Shown: positions 57,506 to 63,527 of the stretch, piece after piece
How positions within the stretch are numbered: the stretch's first letter is position 1
Layout of the letters: each line of letters starts with the position of its first letter
Assembly (NCBI GenBank): GCA_022393335.1
Contig: JAJEKB010000415.1
Location: 198,123-262,122 of the forward strand
DNA: 64,000 nt
Origin: Macrotrachela quadricornifera
Taxonomy: Eukaryota > Rotifera > Eurotatoria > Philodinida > Philodinidae
Reading direction: 5' to 3'
Translations under genes and position numbers: made by a program
Notes under the pieces: model-generated
Told to the model about the DNA's origin: nothing
Seen by the model: the letters and a program-made list of their open reading frames with translations, nothing else
Databases searched by the model: none

Positions 57506-59603
57506 ATGAATATTGAATTACTTTCAACATTTCAACAAAATTATCCTGAAGAATTCGATGGCATACTTGATTGTGCATCGACGGCTGTTTGTTGTGCTTT
57601 TAATAAAGTTGGTAAATATTTCTTAACAAAAAAAAAAAGTTTTTTTCTCTTTTTAATATATATATATTTATATTCTATATAAAAGGTTCCATGTTAGCTG
57701 TTGGTTGTTCCGATGGTCGTCTTGTTATATGGGATTTTTTAACACGTGGTATAGCTAAAATAATTTGTGCAGATTGGTCACCAATATGTTGTATATCATG
57801 GTCAAAAAAATCTGATTTAATAGCAACATCATCAACAGATAATACTGTTTGTATATGGTATACATCAACAGGTCGTTGTCGTACACGTATATCATGTATA
57901 CATTCACCAATACTTAAAGTTCAATTTCATCCACGTAATCCAACTTATTTACTTATATGTCCAATGAAACATCCACCTGTTTTAATTGATAATAATGGTA
58001 AACATACAATAGTTACAATTGATGATGAATCAAATGATATAGTATCAACATTTGATAGAAAAGGTGAACATATTATATTAGGAAATAGTCGAGGTTTAAT
58101 TGTTATTAAAACATTTTCGGATTTAAAAACTATTTCATCATTTCGTATTACAACTGGAACAAATACAAATATGGTATTAAGACATATTGAAATTCCTCGT
58201 CGAGGTAAATAAAAAAAAATTAATTTTTTGTATAGTAAAATAATTATTTTATTTAATCAATATTTGCTAATCAAAGCATGTCAAACAAAATATAATGAAA
58301 AATTTTTCTTTTTATAGGTCAATATTGTCTTGTTAATACAAGTGATAGAATAATTCGAATTTATAGTTATACTGAAATGTTATCATGTGGTATTAATCGT
58401 GATCTTGAACCTAAACAAAAACTTCAAGATCTTGTTAATAAATCTTTATGGCGTAAATGTTGTTGGTCAGGTGATGGTGAATATATTTGTGGTGCATCAT
58501 CTCGACAACATTCTTTATATATATGGGAAACAATATCAGGTAATTTAGTAAAAATTTTACATGGTACAAAAGGTGAAACATTATCTGATGTATGTTGGCA
58601 TCCAGTACGTCCAATAATAGCAAGTATATCAACTGGTGTTGTATCAGTATGGTCTCATTCTCAAGTTGAAAATTGGTCAGCATTTGCACCAGATTTTTGT
58701 GAACTTGAAGAAAATGTTGAATATCATGAACGTGAATCAGAATTTGATATAAAAGATGAAGATAGAAGTTTAGATGGTTTAGATTACATTGGTTCATCTA
58801 ATAAACGACAACGTTTAGATCCAAATGGTAATTTAAAAAAAGATGATGATGATAATATTGAAATAGATGTTCTTACTGATCAACGTATTGAAGCATTAGT
58901 ATCAAGTGATGATGATGATATTAATGATCAACTTGTTTATTTACCTGTTGCACCAGATATTGAAGATCCTGAAATTGAATGTCCAACACCTGTATCAAAT
59001 ATACCAAAAACTCGTGTAGCAAGTCCATCATTACAAACACGTGTTGAAGCTGATGAAATATTTGAAATTCCATTAAAAATTCCGCATGTTCATGATGCTC
59101 ATCCATATTTTGGTGGAACAAAACAACCAAGATCAACAGTAAATACATTAATAAATACTCAAGAATCTCTAAATAATAAACGTGATATAAAAAATCGACG
59201 TAAAGGACATCATCATCATCATCACCATCATCATCATCATTCAATTCAACATCAAAATTCTTTAATACAACACGATCAAACTGATCAACAAACTATTTTA
59301 TTACCAAAATCAATTGATGCAGCTGTAGCAACTGTTGCAAATAGTCAAAAACGTCCTTTATTAACACAAACATCTGAAGTTAAAGGACAACGAGCACGTT
59401 CAGCTCGTCTTGAAGGAAAAAAAGCAGCAGCAGCAACAACAACAACAACCACCACAACAACAGCAACACCAGTTATACTTAATACACAAACATCCGTAAC
59501 AATAACAACTACTACTGAAGAAATAATTAGTACATCACGTACTAAACGTAGTAGTCATCATTCACATTCAACCGATAATGATACTGACTTTATACCGCAT
59601 TAA
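57506..59603 (+). CDS. RBBP5: Retinoblastoma-binding protein 5 (COMPASS/MLL core subunit)
   Basis: Three exons: 57506-57611, 57686-58204, 58318-59603; 636 residues (human 538). Start MNIELLSTFQQNYPEEFDG matches the conserved RBBP5 N-terminus; an upstream frame from 57458 passes through a T-rich leader and is rejected. WD40 repeats follow: MLAVGCSDGRLVIWDFLTRG, SPILKVQFHPRN, CPMKHPPVL, DRKGEHIILGNSRG, SDRIIRIY, LWRKCCWSGDGEYICGASSR, QHSLYIWE, GNLVKILHGTKGE, WHPVRPIIASISTGVVSVWS. The activation segment is QVENWSAFAPDFCELEENVE then YHERESEFDIKDED, and an acidic stretch gives the link to ASH2L, followed by LVYLPVAPDIEDPE. RBBP5 is a core subunit of MLL/SET1 H3K4 methyltransferase complexes. The tail is longer than in vertebrates and has a run of eleven His residues (about 59208-59240), polyThr and polyAla. 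Confidence 0.96.
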
Positions 59604-60103: not shown

Positions 60104-63100
60104 ATGTTTATCTGTCGACGATTTATTCATACAAGTATACCTCGATATTTAGCTCAATCACCTGCTCCTTCAAATTCTTCATCACCATTAAGTATTTTAC
60201 GAAAAAAAACTGGTTATTCATTATCATATTGTCGAGCAGCACTTCAACAATTTAATGATAATCTTGAACAAGTAAATTATATTAAAATAAATATAATAAT
60301 ATAAATTTTGAATAAATTATTTAAGGCTGAATTATGGCTTCATCAACGTGCTCAAGCTGAAGGTTGGAGTCGAGCAACAAAATTACAAAGTCGTACTGCA
60401 TCTCAAGGTTTAATTGGTATTATTACTAATAAAGATACAGCTGCAATGGTTGAGGTTTGTTAAAAAAAACAATTTAGATTAATTATTAATAAATATTTAT
60501 ATAGATAAATTGTGAAACAGATTTTGTTGCTAAAAATGAAAAATTTCAACAACTTGTTTCTCAAGTAACAAATAGTTTATTAAATAATCAAAAAGAAAAA
60601 ACTAAAGACAAGGTTTTTTTTATTTTTTTTTCTTAATTTTCATTCTATAATTTTTTTTTTTAAAAGATATTTTTTGATAAAGATACTCTATCAACATTAC
60701 CTAGTATTGATGATCGTTCAAAAACATTAGCTGATATAACAGCTTTATGTGTTGGTACACTTGGTGAAAATGTTGTTTTAAGACGTGGTGTTGTTTTTAA
60801 TGCTACACATAATCAATTATTAGCTAGTTATTGTCATGGACAAGTTAATAGTACAAGTTCTGATCTATGTCGTATGGGAAAATATGGTGCTATTGTTAAT
60901 TATTCTCAAATTGATTCAATAACAAATGATACTGAAGTATATAAATAATTTTCTTTTCTTTTTATAAATTAAATTTTTTTTTTTTTGGAGAATGAAAATA
61001 CTTCATCACCAACTATACAAACTCGTTCATATCCATTACGAACAATTTGTCAAAATAATATTGAAAAACCTATTGAATTAAGTACATATCTTGATAATGA
61101 AGATGAATCTAATCAATTACATGAATATCTTAATGGATATACATATGGATTACCATCACGAGAGAGTACATATGATTTAATAATAAAAAATATTATAACA
61201 CAAATTGAACAACAACAATTAAAAAATCTTTATATATTACCAAAAGATATTCGTATACAAACACCTGATCCAATATATATTTATTATCCAGGTTTATGTC
61301 TTAGTAATCAACCAGCAAAAATTGATCAAGCAATAACACGTGAACCTATTGTTATTATTGAACTTATTACACCAACAACTGAACGTTTAATATTACATGA
61401 AAAATCATTTAATTATCAACGTATACCATCATTAAAAGAAATAATTTATATTTGGCCAAATTTAAAAATAGCTCATGTAGATTTTCGTGATGACGATACA
61501 CTGAAATGGACAAGAAAATATTATGGTATTCAAGATAAAATTCCATTACCACAATCAATGGGTAATGGTGAATTAATACTTTCTAATATTTTTGATAATA
61601 TGGTAAGTTAAATATTTAAGTTTCACATTTCATATAAATCATTTTAGCACTTTGATAATAAAAAAAAAAGGAATCAAGTTTTCTTTCTTATCATAAATCA
61701 TTGATTCTATTATTTATCTAATCTATTATATATCGTCATGATGTTTCATACTACGCAAATTTAACTATCTGAATAGAGTGCAATTTACCTCATAACATGT
61801 AATAAATGTTTCTTATTGAAACAAAAAATTTTGATTCTCTATTCATAGATAGAATATTTTCTATCATATCTAGACATTCAATATTGATCTTTTATTTAAA
61901 CTCATCTGTTTTTTATCAACATAAGAAACGTTATTATCTATTATTAAAATAACTCGATTGTATTTCATCTTTAAATCTTCTAGATTATTTCAAGACCTTT
62001 TTTTTTAAGTATATGACATATGAATAATCACTCTCAAATAGTCTTGTTAAATCGATAAATAATATTTCTATATCTATAACAATATTGTTTAAACCCAGAC
62101 GTAAACATTACTTATAAATCCAATTGTCAACTATAAAATTTCATCAATTTTTAATCAATAAAAATAATAAATTTTAATTAAAAATAATTACTGAGTATCA
62201 TTATTTTTTACATGAGTAAAGATATAATAAATAAAATTAGTCGAGTGAAAAAAAAAAATTTTCTAACTATTGTGAATTAAGCCTGTTTATTATAAAATCA
62301 TATGTTCAAAAAAAAAACATGACACAGAAAAACTGAATCATTCATTCATTTGTTACTAATTTACCACCTATGGAATAAAATGTAACATGTGCTTCTTGAA
62401 TTCCACCTGTTCGTTCATCATATACATTACAATGATCATATGGTGGTATATATAAATGTAAAGTAACAGCTGTATCCGTATGACTTGGATTTTCAACACG
62501 ATGTAAACCAATTGAATCATTTATATAAGCAACTTGTCCTTCTTTTAATTCTGTACGACATATAATACGCATTGGTTCTTCTTTATTATCATCTTCATTA
62601 TGTGGCCATTCATATTTTGTTTCAACTAAAGTTCCTTGAATACATTTCATAAAACAATGTGAATTTGTATGATTATGTATTGATGAACCCTGACTTTCAG
62701 CCCAACATAACATCATTAAATTAAATTTACCATTACCAGCATCAACTAAATTTCTTGTATATTTATTTGGTTGAAATTTAAAATATGGTAACCATTCTTT
62801 TAAATTACCTTTATAATTAGTCATTATAGTATGAAGATAATCAATATTAACTTCATTTGTAGCAAATGCTTGATGAAGTAAATCAATTAATTCATTTAAT
62901 GAATTTGGTTGTGTTGATAAATGTGTTGTATTATCAATATATCTCTTACGAATTGTTTGAATATTATTTGTATTATAATTAACAAGTGCTTCCGTCATTG
63001 AATTTTTGTATTATTATGATTGAGTACAAATCGAATGTTATATTTATTGAAGATGAAAAAGATGTATCTTTTCTTTTTCGATTTGATGGATTAATCTTTT

Positions 63101-63527
63101 CGTTTTTCCGTTGTTTACATCGGAAATATATATATATATAACCTTAGTCAAACACACCCTCTTTTTGTTTATCAAGATATAACAAAGTCTAATCTCTAAT
63201 CGAAATAATACGAAAAAAAAACGAAATTTAATCAATAATATTGACGAACCATAACAAAATAAAAAAAAAAGTTCAAGGATTTTCGTTTTTTTTTTATTTT
63301 TTTAGATAAAACAATTAGGTCATTTGATTGCCCAACATATTGTTGCAACACGTTCGAAAACAATTGGTTTAAATGAAAAAAAACAAATAGGAAATGATGA
63401 AGATCGTTTATTGTATCAAAAATGGATGCATACAGATGATAAGAAAAAAACTGTTGAATTATTTCTTAATGAAAATCAATTAAATGTTAATGATTTTGTT
63501 CGATTTGAATGTGGAGAAGAAATTTAA
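60104..63527 (+). CDS. TSFM: Mitochondrial elongation factor Ts (canonical splice form)
   Basis: Canonical form from five exons: 60104-60271, 60326-60454, 60505-60612, 60667-60936, 63306-63527; 298 residues (human 325). The N-terminus (MFICRRFIHTSIPRYLAQ) is Arg-rich without acidic residues, as a mitochondrial targeting peptide. Next is the UBA-like N-domain (LRKKTGYSLSYCRAALQQF), then the EF-Tu contact region INCETDFVAKNEKFQQL, the core LADITALCVGTLGENVVLRR, and KYGAIVNYSQID. The last exon holds LGHLIAQHIVATRSKTIG and ends VNDFVRFECGEEI, the typical TSFM C-terminus. EF-Ts recycles GDP from EF-Tu during mitochondrial translation. The last intron is 2369 bp and contains a Uma2-like in-frame exon (60991-61602) and the CDO1 gene on the other strand. 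Both exon 4 and the last exon are at phase 0, so skipping or including the Uma2-like block keeps the frame. Confidence 0.92.
60991..61611 (+). CDS. Uma2-like (DUF820) domain, in-frame exon within TSFM
   Basis: About 205 codons open, ending at a TAA at 61609-61611; a GTAAGT donor at 61603 would instead let it splice in frame to the last TSFM exon. There is no in-frame ATG before residue about 190, so it needs upstream coding sequence or a non-AUG start. A 54-bp intron (60937-60990, GT...GGAG with a T-rich tract) joins it in frame to TSFM exon 4. Domain features of the Uma2 family (bacterial, PD-(D/E)XK fold): NQLHEYLNGYTYGLPSRES at the start, YIYYPGLCL where the family has YPD, EPIVIIELITPTTERLIL for the EVLSPSTE motif, HEKSFNYQRIPSLKEIIYIW for EKxxxYRxxPSLxEY, and LILSNIFDNM for the family's C-terminal LxxIY. 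The Asp of YPD is Gly here, so catalysis may be lost. A bacterial origin is inferred. Codon use now matches the host, suggesting an old transfer. Confidence 0.7.
   Translation, partial: NENTSSPTIQTRSYPLRTICQNNIEKPIELSTYLDNEDESNQLHEYLNGYTYGLPSRESTYDLIIKNIITQIEQQQLKNLYILPKDIRIQTPDPIYIYYPGLCLSNQPAKIDQAITREPIVIIELITPTTERLILHEKSFNYQRIPSLKEIIYIWPNLKIAHVDFRDDDTLKWTRKYYGIQDKIPLPQSMGNGELILSNIFDNMVS
61612..62341. other. TSFM intron sequence between the Uma2-like exon and CDO1
   Basis: About 730 bp, AT-rich, with no further coding signal. It is both inside the long TSFM intron and the 3' flank of CDO1. Confidence 0.5.
62342..62998 (-). CDS. CDO1: Cysteine dioxygenase type 1
   Basis: Single-exon gene of 218 residues on the strand opposite to TSFM, wholly inside the last TSFM intron. 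It is a cupin enzyme that oxidises cysteine to cysteine sulfinate with ferrous iron, the first step of taurine and sulfate formation. The iron ligands are present: His108 and His110 in SIHNHTNSHCFMK and His166 in IGLHRVENPSHTD. Cys115 (the Cys of the Cys-Tyr cofactor) and Tyr183 in LHLYIPPYDHC are also kept, so the crosslinked cofactor can form. Substrate-site features NKYTRNLVDAGNGKFNLMML and CWAESQGSSIH match the family. It is slightly longer than the mammalian enzyme (200), with an extra 20 or so N-terminal residues and a small acidic insertion (HNEDDNKEEP). Lack of introns in a gene of this size is unusual for the window and may reflect retroposition or simple intron loss. Confidence 0.96.
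   Translation of the reverse strand: MTEALVNYNTNNIQTIRKRYIDNTTHLSTQPNSLNELIDLLHQAFATNEVNIDYLHTIMTNYKGNLKEWLPYFKFQPNKYTRNLVDAGNGKFNLMMLCWAESQGSSIHNHTNSHCFMKCIQGTLVETKYEWPHNEDDNKEEPMRIICRTELKEGQVAYINDSIGLHRVENPSHTDTAVTLHLYIPPYDHCNVYDERTGGIQEAHVTFYSIGGKLVTNE

Follow-up and report, generated by a model that had tools for sequence, protein, structure and literature searches.

A Uma2-type domain as a probable additional exon in mitochondrial EF-Ts of bdelloid rotifers

Acquired genes are common in bdelloids. The locus described here raises the question of whether a Uma2 domain of bacterial type, lying within the gene for mitochondrial elongation factor Ts (EF-Ts, TSFM) of Macrotrachela quadricornifera, belongs to that gene and, if it does, whether it ends the protein or sits inside it. 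We analysed a window of 64,000 nucleotides, the whole stretch of DNA to which all positions refer, and compared the locus with its other copies in the genome, with other bdelloids, and with bacterial Uma2 proteins.

The EF-Ts gene and its additional exon

A base-level check placed the mitochondrial EF-Ts gene at 60104-63527 on the + strand (the strand of all features below unless stated otherwise), with the five expected exons and one non-EF-Ts exon. Exon 1 (60104-60271) matched Pfam EF-Ts_N (PF25025; E 1.6e-9 on 60107-60271, over the cut-off), and its start resembles a presequence, with several Arg and no acidic residues among the first 30; a mitochondrial location of the product is predicted. 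Exons 2 (60326-60454) and 3 (60505-60612) are colinear with animal EF-Ts, and exon 4 (60667-60936), the first part of the core, matched Pfam EF_TS (PF00889; E 1.1e-6 on 60670-60936, over the cut-off). The C-terminal exon, exon 6 (63306-63527, including the stop), matched the end of the EF-Ts profile (Pfam EF_TS, E 5.9e-5, 23.2 bits, below the cut-off of 27), is an open frame, and would keep the frame if joined to either of exons 4 and 5. The introns measure 54, 50, 54, 54, and 1703 bp and are in phase 0 throughout. Upstream of the gene, at 57616-59603 on the + strand, lies another whose wording resembles that of what we take to be a WD40-repeat protein.

The additional exon is a 204-codon, 612-bp open block (exon 5, 60991-61602). 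The sequence-only reading had a 54-bp GT...AG intron in phase 0 leading into this block, and intron 4 (60937-60990, GTATAT...GGAG) bears that out; six bdelloid gene models have the same join. A GTAAGT donor follows the block at 61603-61608, where unspliced reading gives V-S, and an in-frame TAA lies past it at 61609-61611. Intron 5 (61603-63305, 1703 bp by the base-level check) encloses a single-exon cysteine dioxygenase gene on the - strand (62345-63010; Pfam CDO_I, E 1.7e-61). The intron-4 donor GTATAT and exon-5 acceptor GGAG are not strong; taken together, the predicted splice sites of the gene are well supported.

Joined without the block, exons 1-2-3-4-6 give 298 aa and align gap-free at the 4|6 junction with mollusc, annelid, insect, vertebrate, and Brachionus EF-Ts. 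Reading exons 1-4 and the block through to the stop at 61609 gives 431 aa, and joining all six exons gives 502 aa. The gene is like other mitochondrial EF-Ts (PF25025 + PF00889) in that exons 1-4 and 6 align with it, the query being 39% identical to Brachionus across 97% of its length. It is unlike mitochondrial EF-Ts elsewhere in that exons 4 and 6 are separated by 204 residues from a different family, which Brachionus lacks.

The block is unlikely to be open by accident, the chance of a 204-codon open frame being ~7e-9 (one frame, local non-coding base composition). Its G+C by codon position (0.41/0.31/0.03) is similar to that of EF-Ts exons 1-4 (0.45/0.41/0.04). In-frame ATGs occur only at codons 190 and 204, so the block has no usable start of its own, as the sequence-only reading had stated.

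The same reading had assigned the block to Uma2, and profile comparison agreed. Pfam Uma2 (PF05685) matched the window block at E 9.3e-6 (25.7 bits, profile positions 3-143 of 172), just below the cut-off of 27; a second copy of the block in the same genome (contig C4853) scored 30.9 bits, above that cut-off, and 29/35 aligned homologues matched the profile at E <= 0.01. Bacterial Uma2 proteins matched as well, with homology spanning block residues ~18-33 to 204 at about 20-31% identity. Among plasmid proteins, 12 records were similar at E <= 0.1, of which 11 are annotated "Uma2 family endonuclease" and 1 is unannotated; the best (9e-11, residues 18-204) is from Rubrobacter. There were no matches to the block in NCBIfam or in a PDB sequence search; a Thermus plasmid Uma2 used as the PDB query returned 9y1l. 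Together with the bdelloid homologues and an AlphaFold2 model described below, these comparisons support the reading that mitochondrial EF-Ts contains an exon encoding, in frame, a Uma2-type domain.

Copies in the genome and in other bdelloids

A search of the 450-Mb assembly (5695 contigs) located three contigs that each carry exon 4 and the block: C310, C311 (the window), and C4853. No second copy of EF-Ts exon 4 or the Uma2 block with a comparable score was found elsewhere in the assembly, where the block gave only weak matches (E 0.99-6.83). The genome search found a single EF-Ts locus, and the Uma2 exon is present in each assembled copy. The block is open in all three, and GT/AG at 60937, 60990, 61603, and 63305 are identical among them. 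The C310 block is identical to that of the window, and the C4853 block differs at 8/612 bases (4 silent, 4 not), too few haplotype differences to show selection. The C310 frame is broken in exons 1 and 6 by length differences of one base, with a stop in its exon 6; these differences are probably homopolymer assembly errors. The three copies are also mosaic: C310 equals C311 mid-gene and equals C4853 at the upstream gene, the cysteine dioxygenase gene, and exon 6, reflecting either assembly phase switching or gene conversion.

Whether the same exon occurs in EF-Ts of other bdelloids was clear from the 431-aa query, for which the top matches were Adineta steineri, A. vaga (I4U23_008519), A. ricciae, Rotaria sp. 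Silwood1, R. socialis, and Didymodactylos carnosus. The models of these six species are 430-451 aa long, share 59-83% identity across the full query, and each contain PF25025, PF05685, and PF00889, so that the EF-Ts/Uma2 join is present in all six; it was also seen in row P0007. PF05685 occurred among the 120 matches listed only in the six named bdelloids and in rows P0007, P0008, and P0010. With the canonical EF-Ts as query, the same six bdelloids ranked first among the matches listed, together with P0009, and no complete bdelloid EF-Ts lacking Uma2 was found among the best 120 matches. P0009 is a bdelloid-like sequence of 239 aa without Uma2 that ends a few residues beyond exon 4 and looks like intron read-through. 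The EF-Ts of Brachionus plicatilis (P0032) had no Uma2.

Mean pairwise identity among seven sequences (21 pairs) was 0.81 for EF-Ts and 0.71 for the Uma2 block, and the two were correlated (r 0.94). The open frame in six species and the co-varying identities indicate that the block is old, vertically inherited, and constrained. That constraint would have acted since the split of Adineta, Rotaria, and Didymodactylos.

In the wider comparisons below we used 36 rotifer-type rows, which are 90% clusters, many of them metagenomic, assigned by similarity and not independent species. Six JGI metagenome fragments labelled Uma2 family endonuclease (P0129, P0131, P0132, P0139, P0140, and P0145) were 66-89% identical to the rotifer block and, judging from this similarity, very probably derive from bdelloids despite the bacterial name.

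The end of the block and the competing readings

Two ends had been offered for the block, a splice at 61603 and a stop at 61609. We compared the block end across the 36 rotifer-type rows, dropping P0144, which has no end motif, and counting 35. The last conserved residue is Met in 33/35 rows and otherwise Val or Ile; the next is Val in 34/35, and after this Val comes Ser in 31 rows, Arg in 2, and Gly in 1. Across the two donor codons pairwise identity reaches 0.94 and 0.79, and one position further on it has dropped to 0.09. In other species the donor is read from protein letters; the window itself codes the pair as GTAAGT. Tails after the donor run to 0-101 residues, the stop position varying accordingly among homologues, and are partly recognisable between close relatives, as would be expected for the start of a related intron. 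The exceptional row, P0142, an A. steineri model, exits the exon exactly at Met204. Conserved V-S/R/G followed by lost similarity is what a conserved GT donor read into an intron produces, and a conserved stop would not explain it. The 61609 stop is probably intronic, and exon 5 is most likely internal, its splicing to exon 6 at 63306 placing Uma2 inside an EF-Ts of 502 aa. None of the six named gene models extends to exon 6, all of them stopping at the donor or in the variable tail beyond; the other bdelloids were compared as proteins, and exon 6 is known here from the window species. The 1703-bp intron 5, with its antisense cysteine dioxygenase gene, may easily be missed by gene finders.

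We consider it likely that intron 4 of mitochondrial EF-Ts received a Uma2 gene, which is now an included exon spliced to exon 6 and whose product is a pseudo-nuclease that acts by binding. Since a 54-bp intron of usual size precedes the block and the gene's best-looking donor, GTAAGT, follows it, inclusion is likely to be the default, and canonical 298-aa EF-Ts might possibly still arise through exon skipping. The sequence-only reading had instead favoured a half EF-Ts with a Uma2 tail made beside normal EF-Ts. Its chimeric join stands, being present in the six bdelloid models, and the tail arrangement is less likely than Uma2 inside EF-Ts. As an alternative terminal exon, the block would give a 431-aa protein of that kind alongside canonical 298-aa EF-Ts spliced through 60936|63306. 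This arrangement fits the ends of the six gene models, those of A. vaga and A. ricciae lying directly after V-S as in the window, and it fits the in-frame exon 4|6 join, colinear with EF-Ts of other animals. What is conserved, however, is the donor codons and not the stop position or the tail, and a complete bdelloid EF-Ts without Uma2 is missing from those best 120 matches. We regard a terminal exon as unlikely, and the splice from 61603 to 63306 fits the comparison better than the 61609 stop despite the six models that end there.

A regulated cassette exon, with 502-aa and 298-aa forms in comparable amounts and Uma2 switched in or out, seems to us more doubtful again. The block is a multiple of 3 in length, both of its boundaries are in phase 0, and the 4|6 join is colinear, but no skipped gene model appeared among the 120 matches listed, and skipping would need a 2369-bp intron in place of a 54-bp one. 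We rejected the block as an independent intronic gene because it has no usable start and its join is conserved. An independent gene or pseudogene within the EF-Ts intron, with the gene models as prediction errors, would suit an intron-less block of bacterial type, and automatic models can fuse neighbours. Yet there is no in-frame start ahead of codon 190, a phase-0 acceptor directly precedes the block, six species and P0007 share the join, and the frame is open at 0.71 mean identity, which together make this reading highly improbable.

Origin, residue loss, and possible role

For the origin of the block, we built a tree of rotifer-type and bacterial Uma2, in which the rotifer-type rows were the only eukaryotic members. 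It had 100 rows, comprising 12 of the 36 rotifer-type rows, picked by us, and 88 bacterial rows, 2 others having been dropped as too short. A single branch (100/100, length 2.49) separated the 12 rotifer-type rows from the rest, and the position of this long branch among the bacteria is weak (44/82). One entry of Uma2 into bdelloids is likely. The prokaryote and virus collections, searched for bdelloid DNA that would show exon 6 and the splice sites of other species, contained none. A single fungal Uma2 case is mentioned in PMC4102429.

Under the preferred reading of an included exon 5, a bacterial-type Uma2 gene would have inserted, in the bdelloid stem, into intron 4 of the nuclear-encoded mitochondrial EF-Ts and become a coding exon with phase 0 at both ends. 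This exon would be included by default and spliced to exon 6, giving a mitochondrial EF-Ts of 502 aa with a Uma2-fold domain between the two parts of the core. The domain would have lost the PD-motif Asp and the second Asp and retained its fold residues, one Glu, and the family Lys.

The residue loss was seen by comparing the 36 rotifer-type rows (16 of which do not reach residue 45) with 90 bacterial rows, of which 80 were retrieved from genomes by the pattern HEY[LVI][ND]G (the best 80 of 424) and 10 came from plasmids. The pattern fixes His44, Glu45, and Gly49 in those 80 rows and leaves D101, D134, E124, and K138 free. The PD-motif Asp is D in 87/90 bacterial rows and never in the rotifer-type rows, which have G (31) or S (5). 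The second Asp is D in 88/90 bacterial rows, and I (33) or V (3) in the rotifer-type rows. The second-motif Glu, E124, and the following Lys, K138, are each present in 36/36 rotifer-type and 87/90 bacterial rows. The block is like Uma2/DUF820/COG4636 (PF05685, PD-(D/E)XK clan) in homology over the whole domain and in the shared positions His-Glu-Tyr, E124, K138, Y142, and W173. It is unlike bacterial Uma2 in missing both Asp residues (36/36), in lying within a eukaryotic gene, and in having no start.

The PD-motif Asp is presumably a metal ligand in the PD-(D/E)XK superfamily, and with it lost no cutting is predicted. For the nuclease-fold protein that the sequence-only reading had suggested for mitochondria, working nuclease activity is judged unlikely, the Asp being absent from all 36 rotifer-type rows. 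From these residues we predict that the nuclease is inactive and has been retained for some other function. The AlphaFold2 model of the block (pLDDT 79.3, pTM 0.70) has a predicted alpha/beta core. We infer a pseudo-nuclease that may act through binding, of nucleic acid or of a partner, near the EF-Tu/EF-Ts machinery. More tentatively, and in our view improbably, EF-Ts in bdelloids could always be chimeric with no canonical form, the dead domain binding mitochondrial RNA or DNA and thereby tying the EF-Tu exchange factor to nucleic acid.

PMC1913061 assigns DUF820 to the PD-(D/E)XK nucleases with 1wdj as representative, and an earlier genome paper gives its function as unknown and suggests DNA binding (PMC1274311). 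Fusions of this general kind have been described in arthropods, with 104 chimeras of host and acquired sequence reported in PMC13389597, where the acquired domain of oskar is described as lacking key hydrolytic residues and binding mRNA. The bdelloid gene is like these chimeras, with oskar as example, in that an animal gene is fused to horizontally acquired sequence, here a putatively acquired one. It differs in occurring in Rotifera (rotifers are not mentioned in the text of that paper), in being an internal insert, and in having an essential mitochondrial translation factor as host. We found no paper on an EF-Ts/Uma2 fusion in bdelloids or rotifers among the open-access papers searched; databases carry the bdelloid fusion under the name elongation factor Ts.

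The finding is a warning that in databases the EF-Ts models of bdelloids are misread, as are the Uma2 labels given to environmental fragments. For the organism, it means that an acquired sequence would have become an exon midway in an organelle translation factor that is normally essential and found at a single locus, and would have been retained across several genera. It would exemplify cleanly how an acquired enzyme domain can lose its putative active site and nevertheless be conserved. If EF-Ts is indeed always chimeric, the domain could, for instance, stop or shield translation in mitochondria when the animal dries and its DNA breaks. With Adineta, an animal that can be cultured, the role of a so far unstudied domain family becomes testable.
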